NCBI GenBank assembly: GCA_009711615.1 | Contig: VENI01000009.1 | Coordinates: 310,001-374,000, forward strand | Source of the DNA: Bacillota bacterium | GTDB taxonomy: Bacteria > Bacillota > Desulfotomaculia > Desulfotomaculales > Desulfohalotomaculaceae | Length of the DNA: 64,000 bases | Direction of reading: 5' to 3' | Shown: one piece after another, positions 47,583 through 63,884 of the stretch | Numbering within the stretch: the stretch's first letter is position 1 | Layout: each line of letters begins with the position of its first letter | Translations under genes and position numbers: made by a program | Notes under the pieces: generated by a model | Told to the model about the DNA's origin: nothing | Database searches by the model: none | Seen by the model: the letters and a program-made list of their open reading frames with translations, nothing else

Positions 47583-47666
47583 GTAATTAATCAAAGGGGG
47601 AAAAAATTCATGTTACCTACCAAAATTGATCACCTTAATCCGAATTAATTGGTGGAGTTGATAAAC

Positions 47667-48377
47667 TTGTGGATATCAAATATAAAACAGCTCATATTGA
47701 ATGCTCAAAATGGTGATGAATTTTCTAGGGAAAAGTTAATTAAGAAACACCGAAATTTCATAGCCAAAGTAAGTTCTGTAACCTGCGGTAGATACTTAAC
47801 CTGGGAAAACGATGAAGAATTAAGTATCGCTCTAATTGCTTTTAATGAATCTATTGATGCTTTTGATACTGAAGAAAGTATTAAATTTACTAGCTTTGCA
47901 CAAACAGTAATTAAACGTCGATTAATTGATTACTTTAGAAGTCAAGGTAAATATAGAAATGAAATACTTTCTTCCTCGTCCAAAGAAACCGATGAGCTAG
48001 AATCTGGTATTAATGCTCAATCAATTTCTAATTACGATGACAGTATCACTCAAGAAAACTTGGCTTTACTGATCGATGAATATAAAACGCAATTAGCAGA
48101 ATACAGTATCGATATTCATGACTTACCAAAAGTTTCACCTAAACATCGTGATACCAGGGAATCGTTAATGAAAACCGCACAGACACTGGTTAAAAACCAA
48201 GAAATGGTTAATTATTTACGAAAATATGGGCAACTACCAGTCAAACAACTGTGCCAGGAAACCGGCCTAAGTAGAAAAGTACTGGAAAGAGGTAGAAAAT
48301 ATATCATTTCCCTAGTCGTTATATTAATTGAACCCTCTCTTTCACCATTAAAGAAATTTTCTAATTTCCCCCGCTGA
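47667..48377 (+). CDS. sigI: RNA polymerase sigma factor SigI
   Basis: A 236-residue sigma-70-family factor of the SigI group: FIAKVSSVTCGRYLTWENDEELSIALIAFNESIDAFD (region 2), FAQTVIKRRLIDYFR, and a C-terminal helix-turn-helix segment KQLCQETGLSRKVLERGRKYIISL. I chose the TTG at 47667 because GGTGGAG is nine bases upstream. SigI controls wall, heat or polysaccharide-linked genes in Bacillus and clostridia and is held by RsgI, encoded next. Confidence 0.93.
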   Translation: MWISNIKQLILNAQNGDEFSREKLIKKHRNFIAKVSSVTCGRYLTWENDEELSIALIAFNESIDAFDTEESIKFTSFAQTVIKRRLIDYFRSQGKYRNEILSSSSKETDELESGINAQSISNYDDSITQENLALLIDEYKTQLAEYSIDIHDLPKVSPKHRDTRESLMKTAQTLVKNQEMVNYLRKYGQLPVKQLCQETGLSRKVLERGRKYIISLVVILIEPSLSPLKKFSNFPR

Positions 48378-48398
48378 TGATTATGAGGAGTGATTGTG

Positions 48399-49496
48399 AT
48401 GAAAAATAAAAAGATTGTCATTATGTCTATAAATGAGCGCGAAACAGTGGGCTATACCGACGATGGAGAATTTATTAGTTTACCAAAAAGGGAAAATCAT
48501 CAGGTAGGTCAAATATTAAATCTAAGTGCCCAGAAATCTAACAAACGCAACTTTTTTACCGGTTGGCAGGTAGCAGCAGTTGCTACTATAATGCTGGTGG
48601 CCTTTATGGGTGTTCTATATCCTCAGTTCACTCAGGAAGCAGAGGCATATCTCAGCCTAGGTCTTAACTCTGGCGGTGTTGAAATGTGGGTTGACAAAAA
48701 TGACAAAGTTATTGATATTAAATACCATGACGCAGCCACAACCTGGGGAGAACAAGATTTAAAAGGGGAAAATGTGTATAAAGCAGTTACCCTCTTAGCA
48801 TCTAAAGCTCAGCATTCAGGTCTTTTAGATGAACAGCAGGATAAGATGTTTATGTTAAATCATGCTAATTTAAATGAAAATGTGCCCCATCACCTTGATG
48901 AATCAAAATTAAAACAGTCCGCTTCTAAGGGTTTAAGCACAGATTATAACGGCCTTATGATTATGGGTAGACATGATATGAACTTTATAAATAAAGCAAA
49001 AGAGATGGGTGTAACAGCCAGCCAATATTATGTTATGGAGCAAAGTACTAACGCTGGCCATAATATAACGGCAGACCAAGTTAAGGGCCATCATATTAGT
49101 GATGTTTTGACTGAGAATGGTACAACACCAGAAGAAGTATTTCAAATGGAACCACATATGAATCAAAATAATTCTACTATGCCGCGTACTCATAATGATG
49201 ATAACAAGATTGAGGATAAAAGTGATGAACACTCAAACCCAAGCAACAATGGACATAATACCATGCCCAATAACCAAAATAATATGAATGATATGCAAGG
49301 GACTGAGAAACAACCAACAGATAAAACTGAGCAGACACATGACGGTCAATATATGGATAGTAATGATACACCGCACCAGGATTATAAAGGAAACATGGAT
49401 GTAGATAAAACTGATCAGACTCACAACAGCCAATATATGGGTAGTAATGATACAATGCACCAAGAATATAAAGACACAATGGGTAACTACAGATAG
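48399..49496 (+). CDS. rsgI: RsgI-like anti-sigma factor with Met/His-rich outer tail
   Basis: A 365-residue membrane anti-sigma factor. N-terminal RsgI domain inside (KIVIMSINERETVGYTDDGEFISLP), one helix (VAAVATIMLVAFMGVLYP, about 55-75), then an outside RsgI-type alpha/beta segment (EAYLSLGLNSGGVEMWVDKNDKVI). From about residue 240 the tail is rich in Asn, Met, His and Asp and contains two copies of a 28-residue unit. No carbohydrate-binding module as in Clostridium thermocellum RsgI is seen. ATG chosen for GAGGAG upstream. Confidence 0.88.
   Translation: MKNKKIVIMSINERETVGYTDDGEFISLPKRENHQVGQILNLSAQKSNKRNFFTGWQVAAVATIMLVAFMGVLYPQFTQEAEAYLSLGLNSGGVEMWVDKNDKVIDIKYHDAATTWGEQDLKGENVYKAVTLLASKAQHSGLLDEQQDKMFMLNHANLNENVPHHLDESKLKQSASKGLSTDYNGLMIMGRHDMNFINKAKEMGVTASQYYVMEQSTNAGHNITADQVKGHHISDVLTENGTTPEEVFQMEPHMNQNNSTMPRTHNDDNKIEDKSDEHSNPSNNGHNTMPNNQNNMNDMQGTEKQPTDKTEQTHDGQYMDSNDTPHQDYKGNMDVDKTDQTHNSQYMGSNDTMHQEYKDTMGNYR
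49320..49487 (+). repeat. Two tandem 84-bp repeats at the end of rsgI
   Basis: Units 49320-49403 and 49404-49487 encode DKTxQTHxxQYMxSNDTxHQ-type 28-residue repeats. Differences are scattered, so the duplication is not very recent. Confidence 0.85.
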
Positions 49497-49850: not shown

Positions 49851-50069
49851 TTAAAAAGGTGTAAAAGCACCACCGGAAACATTGTCTAAGTCATCTTCCG
49901 CTAACTCTTTACTGTTTTTTAACTCTTTAAGTTCTGCTATTGTTATTTCTATGCCTTCCGCTTTACATAACTCTACAGCTTCTTCAATGCTTTTAGCGTT
50001 AGACATCTTTTTTGCAAAGCCTTTATCCTTTTTTAATTTGTTAAGTAACAGTTCTATATGCTGTTCCAT
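49851..50069 (-). CDS. Nif11-type precursor peptide, tail AFTPF
   Basis: 72 residues from ATG 50069 (GAGGTGAG upstream). The leader (EQHIELLLNKLKKDKG... to EDDLDNVSGG) is of the Nif11/NHLP type and ends with a double-glycine cleavage site. The core after GG is only AFTPF, which is very short. Near-identical leader to the next gene at 50080. Exported and cut by the C39 ABC transporter in the same operon. No modifying enzyme recognised. Confidence 0.88.
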   Translation of the reverse strand: MEQHIELLLNKLKKDKGFAKKMSNAKSIEEAVELCKAEGIEITIAELKELKNSKELAEDDLDNVSGGAFTPF

Positions 50070-50079
50070 CTTACTCACC

Positions 50080-50331
50080 TCAATATGGGGCTGGTCTGCT
50101 ATAACCACTTACTTTTATGTTAGTAGTTGTACCACCAGAAATATTATCTAAATCATCTTCGGTTAACTCTTTACTGTTTTTAAACTCTTTCAGTTCTGCT
50201 GTAGTTATTTCTATGCCTTCCGCTTTGCATAACTCTACAGCTTCTTCAATGCTTTTAGCGTTAGACATCTTTTCCGCAAAGTCTTTATCTTTCTTTAATT
50301 TGCTGAGTAGGATTTCTATATGCTGTTCCAT
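50080..50331 (-). CDS. Nif11-type precursor peptide, 16-residue core
   Basis: 83 residues. Leader as in the neighbouring gene, ending LDNISGG. Core TTTNIKVSGYSRPAPY has no Cys and few residues usable for lanthionine. Ribosome site AGGTGAG. Confidence 0.9.
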   Translation of the reverse strand: MEQHIEILLSKLKKDKDFAEKMSNAKSIEEAVELCKAEGIEITTAELKEFKNSKELTEDDLDNISGGTTTNIKVSGYSRPAPY

Positions 50332-50345
50332 TGATACTCACCTCA

Positions 50346-50591
50346 CTAGGAAATGTCTATTAAATTAAAAGTAGGTGTATGGTTTAAAGAACCACCAGAG
50401 ACATTATCTAAGTCATCTTCGGTTAACTTTTTACTATTTTTTAACTCTTTAAGTTCTGCTATTGTTATTTCTATGCCTGCATCTTTAGCCAGCACTTGAA
50501 CTTCTTCCATGCTTTTGGCCTCTGCTACTTTTTGGGCCAGCTGTTCATTTTCTCTTAATTTATTTAGAAATAGTTCAATATTTTTTGTCAT
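50346..50591 (-). CDS. Nif11-type precursor peptide, 14-residue core
   Basis: 81 residues from ATG 50591. Leader MTKNIELFLNKLRENEQLAQ... with IAELKELKNSKKLTEDDLDNVSGG, core SLNHTPTFNLIDIS. The leader half nearest the cleavage site is nearly identical to the others and the first half diverges, so recombination or separate selection is likely. Confidence 0.88.
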   Translation of the reverse strand: MTKNIELFLNKLRENEQLAQKVAEAKSMEEVQVLAKDAGIEITIAELKELKNSKKLTEDDLDNVSGGSLNHTPTFNLIDIS

Positions 50592-50619
50592 CCGTAACAC
50601 ACCCCTATTTATCAACTAA

Positions 50620-50979
50620 TTAACAAATTGCATTTCCGTTGTTCATCAGCCATTTTTGGTTCTTTATTTGTTCCTTTGTATATCCACCGGACATAACCTT
50701 ACCTGCTGGCCCTGATCCGATCGCTACTGTTGTAAAGCCACCAGCAACGCCATCTAAATCATCATCACTTAATTCATCCTGATCTTGTTTTTCACAATAT
50801 TGCACCACTTGCTTCATTAGTTCCTGAACTTCCTGCATGTCTTCACTTGATAATTCAATGCCCTCATTTTTACTTAACTGCTGCACATCCTCTGCACTTT
50901 CTGCACTAAATACCTTGTCACCAAATGCCTTGTCCTCAGAAATTTTCTTGATAAAAACATCTACCTTTTCTTTAGCCAT
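50620..50979 (-). CDS. Larger Nif11-type precursor peptide with 38-residue core
   Basis: 119 residues. Leader ends DDDLDGVAGG; the core FTTVAIGSGPAGKVMSGGYT...NAIC is longer than the other three and ends in the only Cys. It is the gene nearest the transporter, so it may be the founder or a special product. Ribosome site AAGGAGG. Confidence 0.88.
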   Translation of the reverse strand: MAKEKVDVFIKKISEDKAFGDKVFSAESAEDVQQLSKNEGIELSSEDMQEVQELMKQVVQYCEKQDQDELSDDDLDGVAGGFTTVAIGSGPAGKVMSGGYTKEQIKNQKWLMNNGNAIC

Positions 50980-51007: not shown

Positions 51008-53713
51008 TTAAGCAAGTTGGCGTTTTGCCAGTTCTGCAAAAATGCCATCTTTCTGCATCAGTTCATCGTAGGTTCCTGTTTCCACTATCTTTCCTTTATC
51101 CATTACAATAATCCGGTCACAATTAATGATAGTACTTAACCGGTGGGCTATCACCACTCTTGTTGCTTTTAGCTTATCAAGGCTCTCACTGACAATGGTT
51201 TGGGTTGTATTATCCAGTGCGCTGGTGGCTTCATCAAAGTAAAGTATCTTAGGCTTGTTGACAATGGCTCTAGCTATTAAAAGCCGTTGGCGCTGGCCAC
51301 CGGAGAAAGTACCCCCACCTTCACTAATCACTGTGTGCATACCCATGGGCATTTGTTCAATATCTTTGTCCAACCCAGCCATCGTGGCCGCTTCCTCAGC
51401 ATCTTTCATGGTTAGGTGTGGGTTCGATCCAACTATGTTGGTAAAAATATCACCGGACATCAGTTGACCATTTTGCAAGACTACGCCCAATTGTTTTCTT
51501 ACCGAACGAATATCTATTTTATCAAGGTCTTTGCCATCATAGTAAACCTTTCCGGTTTCCGGGGTTTCAAAACCCAGCAGAATGCGGAACAGCGTAGATT
51601 TCCCGCTGCCGGATGTGCCCACCAAACCAACGTATTCACCTTTTTTAATCTGCAGCGATACATCATCGAGTACCAACGGGCTGTCTTTTTTATAGCGGAA
51701 AGAAAGGTGACTTACCTCTATATCCCCGGTTAATGTTCCGGGGTTGCTTTTAGCATCATCGTATTCCGGCAATTCGTCCAAAACAGTTTTAACCCGTTCA
51801 TATATCGGTATAATGGCATTAACTGATAGAATAGTATCTGACAGTGCCACCATACCCATGACAAAAACAGTGAAAGCTGCATTAAAGGCTATAAACTGAC
51901 CCGGTCCAAGATTAACATCGCTGTTTGCAACTAAGGAATAAAAAATAATCATGGATGTGATGATGGGAAATATGCTATTAAAAGTTACTAGTAAATTAGA
52001 AACGGTATAGGCTTTATAATCTAACTTTGCCTGCTGGCTAAATTCTTTAGACCATAAATAAAAGGCTCTTTTTTCGGCACCGGCAACTTTGAACTTGCTC
52101 ACACCTTGGATTAGCTGTAAAACCAAACCGGCAATTTTATTTTCCGCATCTAAAACCTGACGATCATAACGAATTTTTATGTAACCCAGGGTAGCTGTTA
52201 CAATTACTGCTGACAGCACCAAAAGAACTGCCAACACTGCCAACTGAACGTCGTAATAAAACAGCAGTGCCAGATTAAATACAGAAAATGTACTGGTGAT
52301 AATGGTGTTTACGGCAACCCCTGAAAGCATGGCCCGTATTTCACTGATCCCCATAGCCCTCATGGCCAGTTCACCTGAAGAATACTGCTTAAAGAATGAT
52401 GTCGGTAAGCTTAATAACCGATCCCACAACGCAGCTAAAATGCCTCCCTCAATTTTCCCTTCCAAGCGCAGCATGGCAAAGGATCTGGTTAATTCAAAAA
52501 GCATGGTGGCCAGTGCACTTGCTCCCAAAAAGAAAGCAATCTGCAGTAACTGTAACCTTTGTCCCTGGGGAATGATGCTATCGAAAACAATGCCCGTTGC
52601 CACCGGGGTAACCATCCCCAACAAGCCACCAAGAAGACCCATTAGTAATACCGAAACAAAGTCCCGTTTCCAGCAACTCTCTATACCAAAGGTTAATAAA
52701 TCTTTGATGGTGATAATCTTGTTAGGAAATGGTCGGTAAAAGGTGTAAGCCAGGGGTTTTATATTTTCAGCAATCTTCACGTCATCTATTATTTCACCTT
52801 TATTATCATAGTCATAAAGCATGTACTTGTTTGGCGAATGGGGAATTAATGCCACCGGGCGATTATCCTCTTCCATAAAGGCCAATAACGGCCCGTTATC
52901 ATTTCTCCACCATTCCCCTTTTAATGCCACCTGTCGATATCTAACCTGGGAGGCCCGGGCAATATCCCCCAAGGGATCTTTAGATTTAATACCTTCCCTT
53001 TGTCCGGGATAAGGTAATATATTTATTTTTATTGCTTGACCGACTAACATGCAAGCATTTAATAACGGATCATCACTTTCTGCATCAATAACTTTATGCT
53101 CCTGTTCACTTCCCGTAACTGTGGCTAATTTACTGACAGCCTTACTCATAAACTTGTTATCAACATTTGCTTTTAATTGAAACCTTTTTTTCTCTGCCTG
53201 CTCCTCGCTAGCAATATGTTTGATGGCCGCTTGTAAAAAAGCATTATTGTACTGCCCCAGCATGGAAAAGGAAGTGTTGGCATCATCTGTTTCTGCTGCC
53301 ACTGCCAATTCAGCGGCAGTGGCATCCATTGGCACAGAATCTGCCAGAGAATTAACCCAGTTATTAAATAGCTGAAGATAAGTACTTTGATCAGATAAGT
53401 CTTTAATTATTTCTGTAAAACGCTGCTTTTGTATTTGTCTTAGTTTTGTACCAGGAAGCCCTGATGCCAGTAATGCAAATTTTCTTTCCCGACCTTGGGG
53501 CGAAATGCCAAATATCAAATTTCCTTCGGTAACTTCAAATAAATAGTTTCTTTTTCCGGTTCGCTCCTCAGCTTTTACTTCCACAGCAAAAACAATCACT
53601 TTTCCCTGTTCAACCAACCAGATACTATCGGGATTGGTAAGCAGTAGCGGGTTGTTTCCGGCCACAGAAATTAATGTGCCTTCATTTTGTAAATCTTTCA
53701 GCATGCTCTGCAT
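51008..53713 (-). CDS. NHLP-type peptide export ABC transporter, permease/ATPase
   Basis: A 901-residue ABC exporter lacking a C39 domain. Residues 1-330 are a large N-terminal region typical of the second NHLM/NHLP ABC protein, then six helices, and an ATPase with Walker A GTSGSGKST, signature SGGQRQRLLIARAIV and Walker B ILYFDEATSALD. It works with the next gene's product to export peptides with Nif11/nitrile-hydratase-type leaders. Confidence 0.93.
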   Translation of the reverse strand: MQSMLKDLQNEGTLISVAGNNPLLLTNPDSIWLVEQGKVIVFAVEVKAEERTGKRNYLFEVTEGNLIFGISPQGRERKFALLASGLPGTKLRQIQKQRFTEIIKDLSDQSTYLQLFNNWVNSLADSVPMDATAAELAVAAETDDANTSFSMLGQYNNAFLQAAIKHIASEEQAEKKRFQLKANVDNKFMSKAVSKLATVTGSEQEHKVIDAESDDPLLNACMLVGQAIKINILPYPGQREGIKSKDPLGDIARASQVRYRQVALKGEWWRNDNGPLLAFMEEDNRPVALIPHSPNKYMLYDYDNKGEIIDDVKIAENIKPLAYTFYRPFPNKIITIKDLLTFGIESCWKRDFVSVLLMGLLGGLLGMVTPVATGIVFDSIIPQGQRLQLLQIAFFLGASALATMLFELTRSFAMLRLEGKIEGGILAALWDRLLSLPTSFFKQYSSGELAMRAMGISEIRAMLSGVAVNTIITSTFSVFNLALLFYYDVQLAVLAVLLVLSAVIVTATLGYIKIRYDRQVLDAENKIAGLVLQLIQGVSKFKVAGAEKRAFYLWSKEFSQQAKLDYKAYTVSNLLVTFNSIFPIITSMIIFYSLVANSDVNLGPGQFIAFNAAFTVFVMGMVALSDTILSVNAIIPIYERVKTVLDELPEYDDAKSNPGTLTGDIEVSHLSFRYKKDSPLVLDDVSLQIKKGEYVGLVGTSGSGKSTLFRILLGFETPETGKVYYDGKDLDKIDIRSVRKQLGVVLQNGQLMSGDIFTNIVGSNPHLTMKDAEEAATMAGLDKDIEQMPMGMHTVISEGGGTFSGGQRQRLLIARAIVNKPKILYFDEATSALDNTTQTIVSESLDKLKATRVVIAHRLSTIINCDRIIVMDKGKIVETGTYDELMQKDGIFAELAKRQLA

Positions 53714-53721
53714 TACACCCC

Positions 53722-55869
53722 CTAGCTGGCCTCAATTAAGTTTGCATAATGGCCATCAATATTCTTTAACTGCTCGTGAGTGCCCCGTTGAACAATTTTA
53801 CCTTTATCTAAAACAATTATTTCGTCACAATCTCGAATGGTACTTAAACGATGGGCCACAATAATACAGGTGCAGCCACGGCGACGAATATTTTCATCAA
53901 CTTTTTTCTCAGTCATTGGGTCCAGTGCACTGGTTGCTTCATCCAACACCAGTATTGATGGGTTATTCACCAAAGCCCTGGCAATCTCCAGCCTTTGCCG
54001 CTGGCCACCGCTAAAGTTACTGCCCCCCTCATCAAGCAGATGTTCATAACCACCAACTCGTGAGGTAATGTCATCATGAATACTGGCGTCTTTCGCTGCC
54101 CTAACAATATCGGTTTCAGGGATAGTGTCATCCCAAAGGGTAATATTCTCTTTTATGGTGCCTTCAAACATGTTGATATCTTGATCAACCATAGATAGGG
54201 ATTGATTTATAACTGGTCTCGGAGCATGCTGAGATTTAAATCCATCAAATAGAATCTCCCCTGACCAGGGCTTATAAATACCTGCCACCAGTTTGGCTAC
54301 AGTGGATTTCCCACTGCCGGAACCGCCAACCAGTGCCACCCTGGAACCGGGCTGTAACTTAAGGTTAAAGTCCTCAATTAAAGGAGGTTCCAACGGACTG
54401 TAGCCGAAGGATAAATTCTCTATCTCAATTAGCCCTGACAATTTTTCGTAAGATTGTTCAGTGTCAACCTCTTCACTGGTACACTCATCTATGGGGTATC
54501 TTAAAACGTCATCCAAACGGTTCATATCGCCTTCCATTTCCTGGAGTCTACTGCCCAGGTTAACCAACTCAATGACCGGTTGCATGAAGCTTAACATTAA
54601 ACTTTGAAAAGCAACCACCATACCGATAGTCATCTGTCCATTTAACACATAGTAGCCGCCCAATGCCAAGATAGCAGTGTTGGTTAGGGTTGTCAGTAAT
54701 GTTGGCACACCCAACAGTGGTATGGTTGTAGAATCTAACTGTTGTTTGGCGTTAAGCACTTTGGCTTGGTAACCTGACCATTTTGAAAAAAAGTCTGACT
54801 CTGATCCAGTGGCCTTCAGGGTCTCAATTATCTGCAGGCCAGACATGGAGGTTCCCATCAGTTTACCGTAATCTTGTAGATATTTACGGTTTAAATCCAC
54901 TCGCTTTTGATAAATAAATTTTAAATATAGTATATTCAATGCCGCTGCAGCGACACCCACCAGCGATAATACCACGTTATATTGCAGCATTAATGCCAGG
55001 TAAAAAACAATCATGATTAAGTTAAGTGCAGTGGTGGCAAGTTCCCCGGATAATAACTCCGCTACCTTTTGGTTACTTTGCATGCGGGAACTGATATCAC
55101 CAATGGATCGTTGGTTAAAAAATTCCACTGGCAGTCTCAAGACATGCCACAGGAATTGTCCAGAAGTACTTAACGCAATTCTGAATTTAAGTCTGAGCAG
55201 GTAGTATTCCTGAATCCAGGTTAACAGCCCTCGCAGAACTGCGGTGATCCCCATTCCCAATATTAAGGGTATTAGCCAGTTCTGCTTATTAGCAAGCAAC
55301 ACATCATCCACAAATATTTTGGAAAACAGTGGGATTACTAAACCCGGCATTACCAGTGCCAGCCCAATTAGAATTATGTAAATCAAAGCAATTTTTGAGC
55401 CCTGAATACGATTTTTTAAAGCCTTGGCCATGCTGGGCTTACTGCCGCTCTTTTCAAAATCCGGCCCTGGATTAAAAGTTAATACAATACCGGTAAAGGA
55501 TTGATCAAATTCTTCTTCATCAACTACCCTGGGGCCGCTTCCCGGATCGTTTAAATACACTTTACCGTTTTTAAAGCCCTCTAAAACCAAGAAATGATTA
55601 AAGTTCCAGTGAATAATCATCGGTCCATCCATCTCTTTTAATGATTCAGGCTCTTTGCGATATCCCTTGGCTTCTAAACCATACCTTCTTGCTGCTTTTA
55701 AAACATTGCTGGCTTTACTGCCATCCCTGGAAACGCCACAAGCAATACGCAGCTCTTCCAGAGGTATATATTTACCGTAAAAGCCCAAAACCATGGCCAG
55801 TGACGCTGCACCACATTCCAAGGCTTCCATTTGTAATATAGTAGGGACCTTAACTCGTTTTTCTGGCAT
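53722..55869 (-). CDS. NHLP-type peptide export ABC transporter with C39 peptidase
   Basis: A 715-residue exporter with an N-terminal C39 cysteine peptidase (catalytic Cys in LECGAASLAMVLGFYG, His in HWNFNHFLVLEGF, Asp in YLNDPGSG), six helices, and an ATPase with GGSGSGKST, SGGQRQRLEIARALV and LVLDEATSALD. It cuts leaders after Gly-Gly and exports the core, matching the GG sites of the four Nif11 peptides. Confidence 0.95.
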   Translation of the reverse strand: MPEKRVKVPTILQMEALECGAASLAMVLGFYGKYIPLEELRIACGVSRDGSKASNVLKAARRYGLEAKGYRKEPESLKEMDGPMIIHWNFNHFLVLEGFKNGKVYLNDPGSGPRVVDEEEFDQSFTGIVLTFNPGPDFEKSGSKPSMAKALKNRIQGSKIALIYIILIGLALVMPGLVIPLFSKIFVDDVLLANKQNWLIPLILGMGITAVLRGLLTWIQEYYLLRLKFRIALSTSGQFLWHVLRLPVEFFNQRSIGDISSRMQSNQKVAELLSGELATTALNLIMIVFYLALMLQYNVVLSLVGVAAAALNILYLKFIYQKRVDLNRKYLQDYGKLMGTSMSGLQIIETLKATGSESDFFSKWSGYQAKVLNAKQQLDSTTIPLLGVPTLLTTLTNTAILALGGYYVLNGQMTIGMVVAFQSLMLSFMQPVIELVNLGSRLQEMEGDMNRLDDVLRYPIDECTSEEVDTEQSYEKLSGLIEIENLSFGYSPLEPPLIEDFNLKLQPGSRVALVGGSGSGKSTVAKLVAGIYKPWSGEILFDGFKSQHAPRPVINQSLSMVDQDINMFEGTIKENITLWDDTIPETDIVRAAKDASIHDDITSRVGGYEHLLDEGGSNFSGGQRQRLEIARALVNNPSILVLDEATSALDPMTEKKVDENIRRRGCTCIIVAHRLSTIRDCDEIIVLDKGKIVQRGTHEQLKNIDGHYANLIEAS

Positions 55870-55883
55870 TATCCCACACTCCG

Positions 55884-57134
55884 TTAACTAAATATAGGAA
55901 AAACCAAGCTAATTGGTTTCTGTTCGTTAATGGTTACCGACCCGGAACAAAGCGTACCGCTTGTAATTTTAATTGGCGGCCCCTGTGGTGTGGACCATTT
56001 GTATCCACTAACCGTATCTTCATCAACAACCAGATCAATACGCACTTCCAATGCAGTACTTTGCCCAGCCAGTTTATTAACTAACTCCTCATTGCCCAGT
56101 ATCCGCATCATGCCCTGAAAAGTGGCGGGATAATCGCTTACAGATACCACCCTTCCCAAAAGATAGCCATACTCTTCTTTCTTAACAATGGTGGGGGAAA
56201 CTTGCGCTTCCATACCAGGCAGTATCTTTTTTCCCTCTTCTGCCGGGATATACATTACTAACTCTAAACCCTTAACCTCGTCTCCCGTTTCCTCCAAACT
56301 GATAATTGAGCTTCCTGGTTGAATAATGTCTCCTTCGTTGATCTTAACCTCAAGAACTTGTCCTTCCTCATCTGACACTATGTTAGATTTATATTCCAAT
56401 TCATGCTGTAAATCATTTATCTTTTCTTCTAAAGTGGCAATTTTAGCTGTTATTGTGGAAAGTAATCTGTCCACCGTAGCTTCAGATGCTTTCACTTCCA
56501 GTTCAAGTAATTCATAATTATTTTTTGCCTTTGATAAATCTTCTCCGCTGTTAACATGTTTATTTAAATAATCCTGTTGGCTGGCAGCATTTATTTTATC
56601 TTGTAACAGTTTAATTTTTGCACTGATAAGTTCATATTTAATATTGTTATATTCTTCAGCCAATGTTGAGTTAGTCTGTGAGCTTTCTATTCTTGAGTAG
56701 AACTGATTTAGTTGGATTAATTCTGATTGAATACCCTCTCCACCGCCGCCAGTTGTTATTTCTTGAGTTGCCTTTAACTGCTGAAGCTGGTTTTTAAAAT
56801 CATTGATCTGCTCCACCAGTTGATGCTGTTCTACCCTGGCTACTATGTCACCCTTTTGTACATAGTCACCGGCCTTAACCCTAATATCTGTAATCTGGCC
56901 ACCACTAACATGAGCCAGATTATATATACCTCCACTTTTAAGTAAAATTCCCTGGCCGTAAACTTTAGTGGGTATACTGCCAAAGAAACCCCAGGTTAAT
57001 GCTGTAACTAAGAGTGCCCCGATGGCTAAAAATGCCAGCCATGCTTTGGGGGTAGTTACCGTCACCATCTGATCAAGCTGCTCCGGTGATGAAAGCCTTT
57101 CTAAGGATACTTTACGAAACAACCCCTGTTTCAT
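55884..57134 (-). CDS. NHLP-type secretion protein (HlyD/adaptor family)
   Basis: A 416-residue membrane-fusion-type protein: an N-terminal helix (about 35-55), a biotinyl-lipoyl-like half (IRVKAGDYVQKGDIVARVEQHQL), a long coiled-coil hairpin, and the second half (VLEVKINEGDIIQPGSSII). It links the two ABC exporters to the outside. Ribosome site GGGAGG. Confidence 0.92.
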   Translation of the reverse strand: MKQGLFRKVSLERLSSPEQLDQMVTVTTPKAWLAFLAIGALLVTALTWGFFGSIPTKVYGQGILLKSGGIYNLAHVSGGQITDIRVKAGDYVQKGDIVARVEQHQLVEQINDFKNQLQQLKATQEITTGGGGEGIQSELIQLNQFYSRIESSQTNSTLAEEYNNIKYELISAKIKLLQDKINAASQQDYLNKHVNSGEDLSKAKNNYELLELEVKASEATVDRLLSTITAKIATLEEKINDLQHELEYKSNIVSDEEGQVLEVKINEGDIIQPGSSIISLEETGDEVKGLELVMYIPAEEGKKILPGMEAQVSPTIVKKEEYGYLLGRVVSVSDYPATFQGMMRILGNEELVNKLAGQSTALEVRIDLVVDEDTVSGYKWSTPQGPPIKITSGTLCSGSVTINEQKPISLVFPIFS

Positions 57135-57150
57135 TACAAGATTCCTCCCA

Positions 57151-58311
57151 CTATTTTTCTAGGTAAACAAATTCACCGTTCCTAACCATTTTTTTATAAA
57201 CAGTTTTGCCTTCAACTGCGCCATTTTCATTAAAACTAATATCATCTATGATTCCCGGCCAGTCTTTTAATGCCCGCAGTTGCTGGGCAATATTTTCAGG
57301 GGTTGGTGTTTCTGTATTATTCATGGCATCAGCCAGCAGTTTAATGGAATCATAGCCTTGAATCGCCCATACATCAGGCTTCTGACCATATTCCTCCATA
57401 AACTTTTGTTTGAACTGCTCTAGTTCCGGCCTCTCACTATCGGGGTTATAGCTAGTAGCTAATACCGCCCCTTCAGCTGCAGCACCCAGAGTTTCTATAA
57501 AGTCAAAGTCTAAACCGTCTCCACCCATTATCGGGATATCTGGATTTATTTTTTTAAGTTTGGTAATAAAATCTGTTGCGGCAGGTAAAGAGTCAGCAAC
57601 AAATACCGCCTCATAATCTAAGGCCTTCCATTTTTCTATAGTTCTCATAAAATCATTATCGTCTTTAAATTCACTTGCCCTGCCTACTATGGAAATGTTG
57701 TTACGTCTGGCTACATCTTCAAAGGAATTTGCCAATCCTCTACCATAGGAAGTATCGGCATAATAGATAGCAATATGCCTGTACCCCTGTTGTTTTGCAA
57801 AAAGAGCCATCTGTTTACCTATTTCATCATCGGTGGGGATATTTTGAAATACAAATTGATAACCCCTTTGGGTTAGATTGGTATTAGAGACAACAGGCGA
57901 TAGCATAACCAAACCAGATTTTTCATAGATGGTAGAAGCAGGGATGGTAATATGTGAATGCCAGTGTCCAACCACTGCCACAACTTTTGGGTTATTAACA
58001 AAAGATTGTGCTATAGTAGTACCAGTCATAAATGAACCTTCGTCATCTTTTACGATAACACCCAGTTCTCTACCACCTATACCACCTTGGGCATTAACCT
58101 CTTTCACAGCCAAGTTAACACCATCAATAAATCCGGTACCATTTTTCATTAGGTCACCGGGTCCGGGTATACCAATTAATATTTGGTTACTTTTATCCGA
58201 CACCCAAGCTTGTCTTTGGGCAGATACGTCCCCCTCACCAACACAAGCAGTTAAAGGAAACAATATAAAAATAATTGTTACTAGTAATTTGAATACTTTA
58301 TTGCCTTTCAT
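57151..58311 (-). CDS. Extracellular ligand-binding lipoprotein (branched-chain-amino-acid type)
   Basis: A 386-residue Leu/Ile/Val-binding-protein-family lipoprotein (lipobox LTAC after a short signal). IGIPGPGDLMKNGTGFIDGVNLAVKEVNAQGGIGGRELGVIVKDDEG is typical, as are AVVGHWHSHITIPASTIYEKSGLVMLSPVVSN and the fold's second half. No ABC permease is encoded nearby, so it may act as a receptor rather than a transporter part. Ligand unknown. Confidence 0.9.
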   Translation of the reverse strand: MKGNKVFKLLVTIIFILFPLTACVGEGDVSAQRQAWVSDKSNQILIGIPGPGDLMKNGTGFIDGVNLAVKEVNAQGGIGGRELGVIVKDDEGSFMTGTTIAQSFVNNPKVVAVVGHWHSHITIPASTIYEKSGLVMLSPVVSNTNLTQRGYQFVFQNIPTDDEIGKQMALFAKQQGYRHIAIYYADTSYGRGLANSFEDVARRNNISIVGRASEFKDDNDFMRTIEKWKALDYEAVFVADSLPAATDFITKLKKINPDIPIMGGDGLDFDFIETLGAAAEGAVLATSYNPDSERPELEQFKQKFMEEYGQKPDVWAIQGYDSIKLLADAMNNTETPTPENIAQQLRALKDWPGIIDDISFNENGAVEGKTVYKKMVRNGEFVYLEK

Positions 58312-58326
58312 TTGCTCCCCCACCTT

Positions 58327-59034
58327 CTACCGTTTCTTGCCATAGTGGATATAAAATCCTTCTTCACTTTTTGCTACTTTTAAGCCTAAATAACCTTGCT
58401 TTAGTAACTCTAACTGCTTGTCCAAGTCAGTGTTTAATACCGGGACAGTATCGCTATCATCCACTGAAATGAGGTTTTGATTATCCTGAAAAAATATATA
58501 TCTCCAATAATTGTTGTATTTAAATTTGAGGTCAACAATCACGGTGTTTGCACCAAGGGCTGCCTTAACACTGGGGTAATTATATGGGGAAACTGTTGCC
58601 AACAGATATCGCCATTCTATATCATGTTTAGCACTAGCTAGAAGATGGTTTATCATTCGTTCTTCCAAGTGATTCCCCCTAAAGTCGGGATGAATAAATG
58701 CCGATTCCATGTGGGCAACCTTCATCAATTGACCTTTTGATAAGCCAATATCCAGGCCTAAATTATCCTCCCGTGCACCTGGGTATAACACCGAAAAAAA
58801 CGCCACCAATTTTTCCGCAACCAAAACGCCAACTGCCAAGCCACTGGTTTCTAATATTTCCACCAACTCTTCATCGGTTAAGTAAACGCATAACGTTTTG
58901 TCTTTCAATCCTTCTATTACAGTACTCTGTAATTCCTTGATTTGATCTAGATGGTTCTTATTCAGTAAAATCATCTCAAAAGGATGGTTTGTTAAATCTG
59001 TTTGATTAGTAATTACTCCTTTTTCAATTAACAT
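58327..59034 (-). CDS. GNAT-like N-acetyltransferase
   Basis: A 235-residue protein with a GNAT core: AVGVLVAEKLVAFFSVLYPG, then MESAFIHPDFRGNHLEERMINHLL (acetyl-CoA binding loop, with R/G-x-x-x replaced by RGNHLEER), and YLLATVSPYNYPSVKAALGANT. Start overlaps the MFS stop (TAATG). In the peptide operon it could acylate a small product or peptide, or a cell-wall amine. No substrate evidence. Confidence 0.72.
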   Translation of the reverse strand: MLIEKGVITNQTDLTNHPFEMILLNKNHLDQIKELQSTVIEGLKDKTLCVYLTDEELVEILETSGLAVGVLVAEKLVAFFSVLYPGAREDNLGLDIGLSKGQLMKVAHMESAFIHPDFRGNHLEERMINHLLASAKHDIEWRYLLATVSPYNYPSVKAALGANTVIVDLKFKYNNYWRYIFFQDNQNLISVDDSDTVPVLNTDLDKQLELLKQGYLGLKVAKSEEGFYIHYGKKR

Positions 59035-61460
59035 TATACCCCCACACCTCTTTGTTGTTGACGATTAGCTTCGTTATTAGTTCGGTTAACAAACCAGAAT
59101 ATCAACAGGGCGACTAAAGAAATAACTCCAATCATTCCAATCCCCTTAATACCTAGCACCATCACCGAACCAAACAAAACCGGCCCCAGCATCTGACCCA
59201 GTTTACGTACATTATCGTAGTACCCCAAGGATTTACCAACACCAAAAGCTCCTGTGGCTTGAAGTTTTATAAAGTAGTTGTTTTGGGCCATTAATCCAAA
59301 GCTTTCAGAAACACCTAACATAATTACCACTAGGAATGCAGTTAACATCGATCCATATAACGCAAACAACAAAAAGCTCGCTACAATAATTAGTCCTGAC
59401 ACAATTACTGCCGTCTCCGATTTGAAATATTTACCTGCATATTTACTAAGCAGTGGGCCTAAATAAACAATACACAAACCGTTAAACATAAAGGCCCGGC
59501 CGACATTGGAAACAGATGCTCCCATGTCTGAGGCGAATATTGGAAAATAGTAATCTAGAAACATACTACTGATTGTCAATGGTATCACAATGGTCAGGAA
59601 AAAAACTAATACCTTACCATCAAATAAAAACTCTAGAACACTTATTTTAGGTAACGCTGACAATTCACCTTGTTTGTTCTCTTTTGAAACTGCACCTTTA
59701 ATAAATACTAAGTTGAAAATTGCCGCTAATATTATAAATGCCAGTATTACATAAAAGACTTGTGAAAAACCAATGCGATCTGCCAGCATGGCCCCCACAA
59801 CAACACCAGCTATAACTCCGGCATATAAACCAGAGAACATTGCAGTAAACCCTTTAGTTTGTTCCTCTTCCGAAGGAAAAGAGTTTACATAGGAACGAAT
59901 GGATATTAATGCAAAACCATAACCGGCACCGGTAATACCTCTGGCAATAATAAAGGCAATTGCATCCGATGCTAGTCCAGATAAAAGCGTACCCAATGCT
60001 GCCACCGCTAGCCCGACAAAGAAGACCATCCTCCAACCTCTTCTGTCAATCACATATCCGGCCAGCACTGCAGCAATGGCGCCCATAAACATTTCCATAG
60101 AAATGGGGAGCCCAAGAATAACATTTTCAGACAGTCCCAGTATCGGTCGGTAGAGTTCCTGCATTAACAGCGGTATAAAAGAACCAGACATAAAAAAACC
60201 AAAAAAGAGGGTGAAAGTCAGCGGTCTGATCATTTCGGCTTCAGATGTGGTTGATTTATTGTTAACTTCCTCTTTCTCGTGATCAAGCTGTCTTCTAAGA
60301 AATATCAAACTAAAATACGTGGATTCCACCATAATAATTAAAGACATCACCATTACTGTTAGAACATCATAAACAATCACTTTTAACTTACTATCAAGAT
60401 AGCTATTTGACAAGTTAACAGTTAGCTTACTTTTTACTCCCTGAGCATCCTGAATTAAGGATGTACTGTAACTTAGATTACTTTCACTTATTTCGTTTTC
60501 TCCAATATCATCACCAGCAGAAGTAAATACCTTACCATCCTTATTGGTCAATGATATGGTTTCAACTTCAGGTACCTCAGTAATTACTTCCTTTAAGTAA
60601 TCATCAAGATTTAATTTCCCATAGGGAACGCCCTCACTAACCACATAGTTAATATCTTTTTCAATCATTTTTGATGTAATGGCCACGTTCTCTTTTGCAA
60701 TATCTATATATGCCTCTTTAAACATATTGTAGTTAATATAACCGTAAATTGCTTGCACAGTACCCAGTATGATAATAAAGCCACCCATAAGAAGCTTTGT
60801 GTTAATTTCCTTGTTATTTTTCACAATTGAGAACTTAGAAATAAAGATAGTTAGTAGGAATAGTGCAATAAGGGCTAAAACTACTAAGTAGTACCCTAGC
60901 TGCGTCATATACTTGTTAGTTTGTTTGTTTATAACCTCTTTATCAAATACTAAATCAACACTGCCGATCCAGCCCGCCCTATTATTTTGTGTATCCATTA
61001 TTGGAATAAATAGATGGTATTCACCTTGATGCAGTACTGAAGCATACCCAGTTTCACCGTTTGGCAAAGACAGTTGATTTCTCATTTCCTGAGAAATTTT
61101 CTTGCGGATTTCCGAAGAAATTTGTTTATCCTCTACTGACCCACTGTGATCATAAATTATTTTTCCATTGGGTAGAACCACTTGTACCTCTCCAAGGTCA
61201 GAAGATTCATTAAACTTTTCTGCAAGTAAATCTTCCATGCCGTAGAAAACATCTAAAGGTTTTCCATACTTGACAGCATATTCAATTTTCCGCACCGTTT
61301 CCTTACCGGAGACTGCGTAACTGGATATTAGAGAATTTGAGTAGTTTTTGTGAAATGAAGCAATATTGATACCACCGGTAAAACCTAACACAATAACAAT
61401 TAGTAATATTGCTGAAAGCAGAAAAAGTATATTTACTCTCTTTGATTTCACATTAATCAT
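59034..61460 (-). CDS. MFS transporter fused to two extracellular sensor-type segments
   Basis: An 808-residue protein. Helix at about 10-30, an extracellular segment (about 31-190), two helices (about 190-245), a second extracellular segment (about 246-365) of Cache-like type (SMIEKDINYVVSEG..., VETISLTNKDGKVFTSAGDD), a helix, and then a 12-helix MFS half (about 415-805, with motif-A-like GYVIDRRGWR near residue 470). The first 400 residues look like a chemoreceptor input without its signalling half. A sensor-coupled export or import switch is a reasonable guess. No family name recognised. Confidence 0.82.
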   Translation of the reverse strand: MINVKSKRVNILFLLSAILLIVIVLGFTGGINIASFHKNYSNSLISSYAVSGKETVRKIEYAVKYGKPLDVFYGMEDLLAEKFNESSDLGEVQVVLPNGKIIYDHSGSVEDKQISSEIRKKISQEMRNQLSLPNGETGYASVLHQGEYHLFIPIMDTQNNRAGWIGSVDLVFDKEVINKQTNKYMTQLGYYLVVLALIALFLLTIFISKFSIVKNNKEINTKLLMGGFIIILGTVQAIYGYINYNMFKEAYIDIAKENVAITSKMIEKDINYVVSEGVPYGKLNLDDYLKEVITEVPEVETISLTNKDGKVFTSAGDDIGENEISESNLSYSTSLIQDAQGVKSKLTVNLSNSYLDSKLKVIVYDVLTVMVMSLIIMVESTYFSLIFLRRQLDHEKEEVNNKSTTSEAEMIRPLTFTLFFGFFMSGSFIPLLMQELYRPILGLSENVILGLPISMEMFMGAIAAVLAGYVIDRRGWRMVFFVGLAVAALGTLLSGLASDAIAFIIARGITGAGYGFALISIRSYVNSFPSEEEQTKGFTAMFSGLYAGVIAGVVVGAMLADRIGFSQVFYVILAFIILAAIFNLVFIKGAVSKENKQGELSALPKISVLEFLFDGKVLVFFLTIVIPLTISSMFLDYYFPIFASDMGASVSNVGRAFMFNGLCIVYLGPLLSKYAGKYFKSETAVIVSGLIIVASFLLFALYGSMLTAFLVVIMLGVSESFGLMAQNNYFIKLQATGAFGVGKSLGYYDNVRKLGQMLGPVLFGSVMVLGIKGIGMIGVISLVALLIFWFVNRTNNEANRQQQRGVGV

Positions 61461-62632
61461 TGTGCATCACCTATACTCTCCCCAGCGATGTTCTGAAAAA
61501 TTTCATCTGCCACCAGCAATACTTCAAATGGTATCTGGAAATTTATTTTATCGGCGGTTTCTAAATTGAATGATATATATGGTGTACTTTTAAATACTTG
61601 TGGAAGTTCCGCTGGAGAACTTCCCTGTAATATCTTCATCATATTTGTAGCACCAAAACGACCTATATTAGTAAAATCATTTAAGGAAGTATTCATTAAT
61701 GCACCATACTTCACTTCGTCCCCACCCATTTGTGAGAGAGTAGGTACATTATTTTCATAAAAAGGAGCAAATAACTGCGGTAGTCTTTCCGGTTCCAGGG
61801 AGGCTACTGTAACATACATGGCATCCACTTCTTCAGCTAGTTTCTGATACGCCTCTGCCACTTCAGCATAATACCTCCCCTTGTCTGCCTCATTTTTAGG
61901 TTCTTTAACATTATAACTAACAATCTCAAACTCTTTTTCCAACGCAACAGCCTTTACATCGTCCACTGCAGAGTAGCTATAAGCAGCAGGGGAGTTTTCA
62001 TAAACCATACCCAGCTTTTTATATTTAAACATATCGTAGAACACTTCAATCTGTCTTTTAAAGCGTTCCGGATCCATGTGGGCCCAGATGTGGTTAATAC
62101 CAGAAGTTTGTTCTGACTTTACTATACCAGAATCCACAGCATTACTGGCGGAAAAAACCATGGAGGGGACGTCATGGTCTGCTTTTGATACCACTGTTCC
62201 AGCATATGTACCCATTATAATCAACAAATCCATATCTCGTTTTTGTTTAAGTCGGTTAATTAATTGCTCCTTTGTTTTCACCCCAGAGCTCAAATCATAA
62301 TGGGCATCCTCAACAAACTCGATGTAAGGTCCCATGTCGTGAGTGGCCAGCCAACTCCACATTGCAGTGGTATCCTCTTGTCCCTTTTGGTAAGGTATAT
62401 CTGAAATGCCATTAATCCATCCCTGCTCTTCCAACCCCAAAAGCAAGTGATAAAAGGTAGATGCATAGTTTACAAAGGGTTCTCCTTCAACGTATGCTAT
62501 CCGCCATTTTTGTCCGTTGTTGATATAATTATCTACAGATTCACTGGCATTAGACTGTACAGGTGTAACAATAACCATCATAAAGCAAATTGATAGGATT
62601 AAGCTGAGTATGCTTTTAGCTTTACCTTTCAT
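61457..62632 (-). CDS. ABC-type substrate-binding protein of the ABC_sub_bind family
   Basis: A 391-residue exported protein (signal peptide to about residue 30) with the fold of the ABC_sub_bind (PF04392-type) family: MDLLIIMGTYAGTVVSK, VPSMVFSASNAVDSGIV, LGMVYENSPAAYSY and DAMYVTVAS. Members bind tryptophan or small aromatic compounds in some cases. No permease is nearby. Last 4 bp overlap the MFS start. Confidence 0.8.
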   Translation of the reverse strand: MKGKAKSILSLILSICFMMVIVTPVQSNASESVDNYINNGQKWRIAYVEGEPFVNYASTFYHLLLGLEEQGWINGISDIPYQKGQEDTTAMWSWLATHDMGPYIEFVEDAHYDLSSGVKTKEQLINRLKQKRDMDLLIIMGTYAGTVVSKADHDVPSMVFSASNAVDSGIVKSEQTSGINHIWAHMDPERFKRQIEVFYDMFKYKKLGMVYENSPAAYSYSAVDDVKAVALEKEFEIVSYNVKEPKNEADKGRYYAEVAEAYQKLAEEVDAMYVTVASLEPERLPQLFAPFYENNVPTLSQMGGDEVKYGALMNTSLNDFTNIGRFGATNMMKILQGSSPAELPQVFKSTPYISFNLETADKINFQIPFEVLLVADEIFQNIAGESIGDAQ

Positions 62633-63775
62633 TTAGCCTATCCCCTCCTGCAAGATACTCTCAGGCAACGAATCCCTTAAGAAACAAACACTTTCACAAT
62701 TTGTTACTGATATCCCAGCACGTTTTGCCACCTCTGACACCGTTATTTTTTCCTCCCCTTGCTCTCCAAAGATAACTACCTCATCGCCAATACTTGCATC
62801 GGGTATATTGGTAATATCCACTAATATGTGCCCCATAAAAGGGCTGCAAATGAGTGGTGTCCTTTGGTTACGAATCAACACTTCACCGCTTTTCATATGC
62901 ACTAAAAACAATGCGTTTGAATAACCAATAGATACGGTGGCAATGCGACCGGATTTTGACACTAAAACCTCGTTGCCATAACCAAGATGCTGGCCATTAC
63001 TTAATTCTTTTATATCAGTTATCCGCGCCTTTAACTGCATTATGGATTTTAAACCTATTTCAGGTTGGTTTTTAAATGAGGGTAACCCATACAGGCATGT
63101 ACCAATTCGCACTGTATTGAAATGTGCTTGGGGATATTTTAATGTTGCCGGACTGCTGGCAGCATGAATCATCGGGATATGAATACCTGAATTATTTAGG
63201 TTACTGATGAGGGAGTTGAACTTTTCAAGGTCCTTGTTAACAAGTTCTTCGTCATCTCCGTAGGTTGATGCTAAATGGGTAAACAAGCCTTCTATTTTAA
63301 GCCATTGATATTGATCAGTTATCAATTTTATAGTCCGATAAGCATGCTGATAAGCAACACCAACGGTTCCTAAGCCGATGTCCACCCGGATATGAAACTT
63401 AATATTTCTTTGTTTTTCTTTACCAATGGCATTAAAACGCTCCGCCAAAGCCTGTGTAGCAATCATTGGCGTCAGGTTATAACCTACCACTTGTTCCGCT
63501 TCTTCCAAAGGTATAGAGCCAAGGATGATTATTGGTGACTTAACTCCACCTAATCTTAATTTAATTCCTTCCTCAGCCGTGGCCACTGCTAACTTGGCAG
63601 CGCCATAACGAGCCATATAATTTGCAATGGTCACAGCTCCGTGGCCATAGGCATCTGCTTTTACCACGGCAATTATTTCTTTGCATGAACCAATGATGTC
63701 TTTTACAATCCGAATATTATTTTTTAGATATGGCAAATTAATTTCAACCCATGGTTTATGAACACTGTTTGTCAT
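62633..63775 (-). CDS. Alanine-racemase-fold PLP enzyme with altered active site
   Basis: A 380-residue protein of the alanine racemase family (PLP Lys in VVKADAYGHG, Tyr in VSIGYSNAL, RIGTCLYG motif). I chose the ATG at 63775 (CGGGAG upstream); an in-frame earlier start adds 34 unsupported residues. Several residues normally invariant in Alr differ: Arg of GMGRxG is Thr (GLGTVG), Asn of HxxNSA is Ser (HAASSP), GYADG is GYSNA, C-M-D-Q is PFMGH and NYE is NCE. It may racemise another amino acid or have another reaction. First clear gene of the peptide operon. Confidence 0.85.
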   Translation of the reverse strand: MTNSVHKPWVEINLPYLKNNIRIVKDIIGSCKEIIAVVKADAYGHGAVTIANYMARYGAAKLAVATAEEGIKLRLGGVKSPIIILGSIPLEEAEQVVGYNLTPMIATQALAERFNAIGKEKQRNIKFHIRVDIGLGTVGVAYQHAYRTIKLITDQYQWLKIEGLFTHLASTYGDDEELVNKDLEKFNSLISNLNNSGIHIPMIHAASSPATLKYPQAHFNTVRIGTCLYGLPSFKNQPEIGLKSIMQLKARITDIKELSNGQHLGYGNEVLVSKSGRIATVSIGYSNALFLVHMKSGEVLIRNQRTPLICSPFMGHILVDITNIPDASIGDEVVIFGEQGEEKITVSEVAKRAGISVTNCESVCFLRDSLPESILQEGIG

Positions 63776-63884
63776 TTTTATGCTCCCGAAATTATGAATT
63801 TTATATATAATTTCTTTATTTATACTTTGAGTTCCTTTAAATTTGTAAAATATTATGTTTATTTGTAGAATTTTCATATAATAG

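Follow-up and report, generated by a model that had tools for sequence, protein, structure and literature searches.

A recurrent accessory module with a sensor-transporter fusion joined to a Nif11/NHLP peptide export operon in a Desulfotomaculia bacterium

Gene content of the locus

The DNA analysed here, referred to as the window, is a stretch of 64,000 nucleotides (positions 310,001 to 374,000 of contig VENI01000009.1) from the 3.17-Mb draft genome of a Bacillota bacterium of the family Desulfohalotomaculaceae. Twelve genes are packed head to tail on its minus strand, from position 63877 down to 49851, and encode in order a protein of the alanine-racemase fold (Alr), an ABC_sub_bind-type binding protein (ASB), a transporter of the major facilitator superfamily (MFS) fused to sensor-like units (sensor-MFS), a GNAT-like protein, a LIV-type receptor (LIV), an HlyD-type membrane fusion protein, two NHLP exporters (ABC1 and ABC2) and four Nif11 precursors. 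The locus is made of two joined units whose adjacency is not a matter of chance. One is a Nif11/NHLP peptide export operon comprising the LIV lipoprotein, HlyD, the two ABC exporters and the four Nif11 precursors, and the other is an independent, recurrent accessory module of Alr, ASB, sensor-MFS and GNAT-like genes. An earlier note on this DNA had treated all of these genes as a single operon; the co-occurrence that it supposed is real, whereas the single operon separates into the NHLP operon and the Alr/ASB/sensor-MFS/GNAT module, which is also found alone and at loci of the extracellular contractile injection system (eCIS) type.

The module begins with Alr (62633..63877, probable ATG start at 63775), a pyridoxal phosphate (PLP) protein matched by TIGR00492 at 284.5 bits and by Pfam PF01168 and PF00842, with no bases between it and the gene for ASB (61457..62632; PF04392, 61 bits), a secreted binding protein that comes without a permease. 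ASB overlaps sensor-MFS (59034..61460) by 4 bases, and base 59034 is shared by sensor-MFS and the GNAT-like gene (58327..59034). The sensor-MFS product consists of duplicated transmembrane (TM)/extracellular units fused to a 12-TM MFS exporter (MFS_1, 101.9 bits, with AlphaFold and Foldseek support), and the GNAT-fold protein, assigned by fold match with a sub-threshold Pfam score, carries a short C-terminal extension.

After a gap of 3 nt follows the export operon, opened by LIV (57151..58323; PF13458, 174 bits), a predicted lipoprotein (LTAC lipobox) of the amino-acid receptor type, again without a permease. Sixteen nt separate LIV from HlyD (55884..57134; TIGR03794, 411 bits against a cut-off of 156), 14 nt separate HlyD from ABC1, and 8 nt separate ABC1 from ABC2. 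ABC1 (53722..55869) is the C39 peptidase/permease/ATPase (TIGR03796, 1152 bits against a cut-off of 853; Peptidase_C39, E 8e-37), and ABC2 (51008..53713) is the permease/ATPase (TIGR03797, 992 bits, over the cut-off). Beyond a further 28 nt lies precursor 1 (50620..50979; TIGR03798, 44.5 bits), with a GG motif and a 38-residue tail, followed by precursor 2 (50346..50615; PF07862, 35.9 bits) with the tail SLNHTPTFNLIDIS, precursor 3 (50080..50331; PF07862, 29 bits) with the tail TTTNIKVSGYSRPAPY, and precursor 4 (49851..50108; TIGR03798, 44.9 bits; probable ATG start near 50075) with the tail AFTPF. All four match Nif11 and have leaders that end in GG, and at 49851-50979 they fall just beyond the 51008-63775 interval of the earlier note.

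Ribosome-binding sites are visible at most of the operon genes, and starts and stops overlap or are 0-28 bases apart. The picture of a one-strand gene set with overlaps and short gaps thus holds: every gene named in the earlier note is present on the minus strand, with overlaps or gaps of no more than 28 bases. Scans for promoters and terminators gave no excess over shuffled sequence. Because only a decayed gene remnant lies upstream of Alr, the operon probably starts with Alr. The remnant, directly upstream at or just past the window end (L002:1886-2177, minus strand), joins a 5'-nucleotidase-like N-terminus out of frame to a LysM-like C-terminus (families assigned by eye), and may mark the arrival point of the operon. 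At the opposite side, genes for a SigI-like protein with sigma-70 region 2 and for an anti-sigma protein of the RsgI type (47649-49496, plus strand) converge on the precursor end, the anti-sigma protein having a low-complexity tail rich in His, Asn and Met.

Recurrence of the sensor-MFS module

Sensor-MFS genes were found at 24 loci drawn from two genome collections, a few of which may be close relatives. Fifteen of these loci adjoin NHLP operons (two of them in the window genome), four are of the eCIS type, and five are neither. The partner genes recur with the fusion: ASB is present at all 18 assessable loci, GNAT at 17 of 19, and Alr at 4 of 24. The outcome that the earlier note had named as a sign of chance adjacency, with the upstream five genes mostly lacking NHLP neighbours, was not seen; besides the 15 NHLP-linked sensor-MFS loci, LIV is found at 34 of 37 NHLP loci.

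At the level of the class, 113 genomes were sampled (29 NHLP-positive and 84 others). Full-length sensor-MFS occurs in seven of them, at eight loci, each adjoining an NHLP operon, so that the fusion is found in 7/29 NHLP-positive genomes and in 0/84 others (Fisher p = 4e-5, an indicative value because the genomes are related). Co-occurrence of sensor-MFS and NHLP at the genome level in the phylum sample gave p = 8e-9. The window genome itself holds a second NHLP operon (C2:38-58 kb). One end of it comprises the genes for sensor-MFS, LIV, HlyD, ABC1 and ABC2, and the opposite end those for GNAT, a radical SAM protein and ASB. One of the eight class loci, in genome G058, reaches a contig end inside ABC1, and its GNAT-radical SAM-ASB end lies on another contig. 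More NHLP-linked copies were found in Syntrophomonadaceae and other families of the phylum.

The second cluster of the window genome has, in addition to the radical SAM gene, arginase-like and DUF7005 genes. Three of its products (L001:1426-5178) recur in other NHLP loci: the DUF7005 protein, a FlmR/OhkR-like peptide arginase (281 bits to NF052474, short of its cut-off of 350) and a 419-residue protein of an unknown family.

The module is also found away from NHLP operons. In Natronincola peptidivorans (L015) and Acetivibrio alkalicellulosi (L023), ASB, sensor-MFS and GNAT stand together with no adjoining NHLP operon, and no NHLP ABC1 over the family cut-off was found in the whole genome of either. 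A profile search (phylum, Clostridia) added seven loci with no adjoining NHLP operon (L156, L159, L160, L161, L162, L164 and L166). Four of these, L159, L160, L162 and L166, are the eCIS-type loci, with neighbours that include Tail_P2_I, Baseplate_J and Pvc16_N, and here the link is drawn from individual neighbouring genes at four partially annotated loci. In L160, Baseplate_J, Tail_P2_I and one further gene are followed directly, on one strand, by ASB, sensor-MFS, GNAT and Alr, and in L162 the order is Alr, ASB, sensor-MFS, then genes for Pvc16_N and an AAA ATPase. L159 has a Tail_P2_I gene close to its ASB-sensor-MFS pair, and in L166 two Pfam-negative genes, by eye like the tail genes of L160, precede ASB, sensor-MFS and GNAT. 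Furthermore, a more distant sensor-MFS of the NHL type (L070) has an eCIS_core protein encoded some 5 kb away.

ASB was seen in two places with no adjacent sensor-MFS. At G001:C10:18471-19490 (L182) it follows a gene whose product resembles a 7TMR-DISM-type sensor and is itself followed by genes of unknown-family, arginase-like and small double-glycine type, and at G027:C40 (L183) its neighbours are a Nif11 precursor and a disrupted DUF7005 gene.

The proteins of the module

Two membrane/extracellular units precede a 12-helix MFS in the hydropathy profile and in the AlphaFold model (pLDDT 76.5, pTM 0.71), in agreement with the earlier description of an MFS with outside sensor parts. The units span residues ~1-210 and ~216-400, and the MFS ~412-800. 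In each unit, two membrane helices flank an outside segment of ~110-160 residues, and the two units are internal repeats of one another (96% probability and E 1e-9 by hhalign, in a single comparison). The predicted helix-strands-helix-strands order between the TM helices fits a Cache-type domain, so that the extracellular units can be termed Cache-like by predicted topology alone. The best Foldseek matches of the MFS half are NorA, VMAT and MdfA (TM-score to target 0.7-0.86), and this resemblance to drug and amine exporters suggests that the MFS half would act in export. A wider family of sensor-MFS proteins (L069:10018-13047, L070:10613-13618, L167, L168 and L169) has NHL repeats or other sensors, and its neighbours include GNAT-fold or LPG_synthase_C genes, SpoIIE-like phosphatases and HAMP-cyclases; the NHL-type member in L169 adjoins an NHLP-type operon with a LIV-like receptor of its own.

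The GNAT-like protein of the window scores below the Pfam cut-off by sequence (17.2 against 20.7 bits), and its assignment is clear from the predicted fold: the model has a pLDDT of 91, matches by Foldseek at E 1e-8, and aligns by VIA-align to Naa10/Ard1 N-terminal acetyltransferases with a Z of 16.3 (root-mean-square deviation 1.9 over 148 residues to 4kvm_E). The model is a single GNAT domain with a short extension, and the tandem GNAT fold of selidamide-type maturases such as NpuN is absent from it. A role as a peptide maturase was considered and is less likely, since the GNAT accompanies sensor-MFS into genomes that lack NHLP.

Alr was also considered as a housekeeping gene, and this was rejected, the genome having another Alr (C3:263788) that scores 432 against 285 bits. 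A class search with the cluster Alr matched only Alrs that looked like housekeeping ones, at identities of up to 37%, which raised the suspicion that it was a hitch-hiker peculiar to the window; that too was rejected, because Alr-like genes lie inside three other module loci, none with an adjoining NHLP operon (L160, 39%; L161, 42%; L162, 34%). All four module Alrs keep the PLP lysine (VKADAYGHG motif, equivalent to K39) and the catalytic tyrosine (IGY motif, equivalent to Y265). In alanine racemase (Bacillus numbering), the substrate carboxylate and the tyrosine of the active site are held by a pair of residues, a carbamylated Lys129 and Arg136. Among the housekeeping Alrs displayed, position 129 is Lys (Glu in L112) and position 136 is Arg, whereas all four module Alrs have Arg at 129 and have lost Arg136 (in the window, K129->R and R136->T), and Asp313 is also missing in three of the four, the window protein included. 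Loss of the Lys129/Arg136 pair makes alanine doubtful, and on these residues the module Alr likely acts on a different substrate; the TIGR00492 name alr should not be taken as a statement of function.

The LIV receptor and the export operon

Of 37 NHLP loci that could be assessed, 34 have LIV upstream of HlyD, and a 35th has it slightly further off. No importer permease or ATPase gene adjoins it, and HlyD is directly next in nearly all loci. The earlier note had described two receptors without permeases, and that absence is confirmed, LIV being followed by HlyD and exporters and not by importer genes; LIV belongs to the NHLP unit and ASB to the module. Among 37 LIV sequences, Ser123 is conserved in 36, Ser/Thr146 in 35, Tyr193 in 37 and Asp272 in 36, positions that we take to be equivalent to the alpha-amino-acid-binding residues of the leucine/isoleucine/valine-binding protein, and a lipobox is present in most copies with clear starts. 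The nearest solved structure is 4mlc (268 bits; next best 115), which is 58-61% identical to NHLP-adjacent receptors in two other genomes (61% to L126), and is by this similarity probably an NHLP receptor itself.

Open-access searches for NHLP with a receptor and for PDB 4MLC found nothing, and the texts of the genome-mining papers PMC2887384 and PMC4289311 do not mention a LIV receptor as part of NHLP operons; the former also mentions no receptor, substrate-binding protein or racemase. The receptor, almost constant in NHLP operons and apparently unremarked, gives a first candidate class of ligand, namely amino acids. A scan of the operon genes and their nearest neighbours found no dedicated modification enzyme for ribosomally synthesized and post-translationally modified peptides (lanthipeptide, TOMM or proteusin).

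At L001:5341-6175 (minus strand), and at about a dozen further NHLP loci, an extracytoplasmic function (ECF) sigma gene precedes, often at short distance, the gene of a small protein that ends in a C39-type DDELDxVAGG. The small protein has a stretch, ELLxLAxxLAxADY/F, that resembles anti-sigma factors, and it could be an anti-sigma removed by the peptide exporter itself, in a feedback like that of FlgM.

Evolution of the module

The trees of sensor-MFS, ASB and GNAT agree, placing the window with Natronincola and the other NHLP-linked copies with Acetivibrio, which indicates that the three genes travel together. In the LIV tree the window groups with the other sensor-MFS loci (support 100/100), as it does in the concatenated exporter tree (93/92), though not with ABC1 alone. 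Two independent joinings of module and NHLP operon, suggested by the sensor-MFS tree, find no support in the LIV and concatenated exporter trees, nor in the approximately unbiased (AU) test, by which a single clade of one origin was not rejected (p 0.19). The module may have joined NHLP operons either once or twice.

Interpretation

A recurrent gene set of assigned folds is attached to two different secretion systems. A transporter with an extracellular sensor of its own is unusual, and this one recurs with the same binding protein and GNAT at two systems that are unrelated. The combination of enzymes for amine- or amino-acid-like molecules with an exporter that carries a sensor, and with binding proteins, fits a scheme of making, exporting and sensing. 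In such a scheme, the Alr-like enzyme and the GNAT would make or modify an amino-acid-derived small molecule in the cytoplasm, and the MFS, resembling drug and amine exporters, would export it. The two extracellular units fused to the MFS, together with ASB (and LIV at NHLP loci), would detect outside the cell the molecule itself or that of a competitor. Conditions outside could then steer how the molecule is exported and, by that route, how the adjacent weapon is released, NHLP peptides here and eCIS elsewhere. We infer the ligand, the enzyme products, the direction of transport and the link to peptide release. As an explanation of the locus as a whole, two joined units, of which the module would make, export and sense, is a tentative account, somewhat less likely than not. 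The narrower proposal, that the module is an undescribed make-export-sense unit for an amino-acid-derived signal, attached to NHLP and eCIS-type weapons to time their release, is more doubtful.

Several observations weigh against the make-export-sense scheme. Alr was found at only 4 of the 24 sensor-MFS loci and is thus not essential to the module. No sensor family in Pfam (Cache/PAS) matched in 14 sensor-MFS members, and no convincing match emerged when the extracellular units were compared by profile with a set of Cache-like domains. The sensor-MFS protein has no cytoplasmic output domain, and hence no evident route from sensing to the exporter or to transcription. Finally, the acetyl-CoA loop of the window GNAT reads RGNHLE, with neither glycine of Q/R-x-x-G-x-G/A. 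Its relatives also deviate, that of Natronincola (L015) having RGNGLQ with the first Gly only. Because these glycines are missing, the window GNAT is possibly not an active acetyltransferase; judged by the loop its activity is in doubt, and the protein could be an active enzyme, a weak one, or a fold that serves in binding.

The strongest rival, itself unlikely, is self-protection, in which the MFS would expel, and the GNAT inactivate, a re-entering product or a rival's toxin, with efflux tuned by the sensor and the binding proteins. It draws on the nearness of the MFS fold to the drug exporters NorA and MdfA, and on the known immunity pairing of GNAT and MFS in microcin C, where MccC (MFS) exports and MccE2 (GNAT) inactivates (PMC9239234); copies of the module in genomes without NHLP exporters could likewise be orphan immunity. 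No MccB-type nucleotidyltransferase, as in microcin C, is present in the window operon. Self-protection, however, leaves the two extracellular sensor units, ASB and Alr without explanation, and sits poorly with the degenerate GNAT loop. Immunity to a small molecule is also not expected at eCIS-type loci, and solitary copies fit it less well.

Tailoring of the peptides is improbable. Here the GNAT would acylate the Nif11 cores in the manner of selidamides, Alr would supply or insert an unusual residue, and the MFS, ASB and sensor would handle the building block. GNATs that lipidate Lys/Orn side chains do occur with NHLP/Nif11 leaders (PMC13060382), and no other modification enzyme is visible among the scanned genes of the window cluster. 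Yet the GNAT stays with sensor-MFS and ASB even at loci and in genomes that have no NHLP exporters or precursors, and is therefore part of the module and not of the precursors. To our knowledge, moreover, all characterised relatives of Alr act on free amino acids. Chance adjacency of an unrelated transporter/enzyme operon and an NHLP operon can draw on the 9 of 24 sensor-MFS loci with no adjoining NHLP operon, but it is already largely refuted and very improbable in the face of the NHLP-linked majority spread over several families, the linkage of every full-length class locus, the co-occurrence in class and phylum samples, and the tight packing of the genes in one direction.

The recurrence of the sensor-MFS module at both kinds of secretion system offers a way into the question of when anaerobic Bacillota release peptides or injection particles. 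The export half of the locus is a known kind of system, and the module may, with a probability below even, be a new signalling system. The earlier note knew of no described system with this gene set, and none was found in the open-access papers searched, nor were the module, the duplicated sensor-MFS fusion or its association with both NHLP and eCIS-type loci.

Comparison with known systems

The export half shares C39-ABC1, ABC2, HlyD and Nif11 double-glycine precursors, all recognized by curated models, with the NHLP/Nif11 export system (TIGR03793-03798; Haft et al. 2010, PMC2887384), and differs from it in the addition of LIV and the Alr/ASB/sensor-MFS/GNAT module and in having no modification enzyme seen in the cluster. 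LIV resembles the LIV-type (Peripla_BP_6) receptors of amino-acid ABC importers in fold, lipoprotein signal and alpha-amino-acid-binding residues, whereas it precedes HlyD and exporters in place of importer permease and ATPase genes. The module Alrs are like alanine/serine racemases (TIGR00492; the VanT catalytic domain) in fold, PLP lysine and catalytic tyrosine, and unlike them in lacking the Lys129/Arg136 pair and, in three of four cases, Asp313. The NHL-type sensor-MFS proteins (L069, L070 and L169) have a homologous MFS half, an N-terminal sensor and a GNAT-fold neighbour, but they carry NHL repeats, a different extracellular domain, and no ASB or Alr was seen alongside them. As with MccC/MccE2 of microcin C, an MFS exporter and a GNAT stand beside a peptide antibiotic system; in the window, the MFS is fused to extracellular sensor units, ASB and Alr are further components, and the module is also found at eCIS-type loci.

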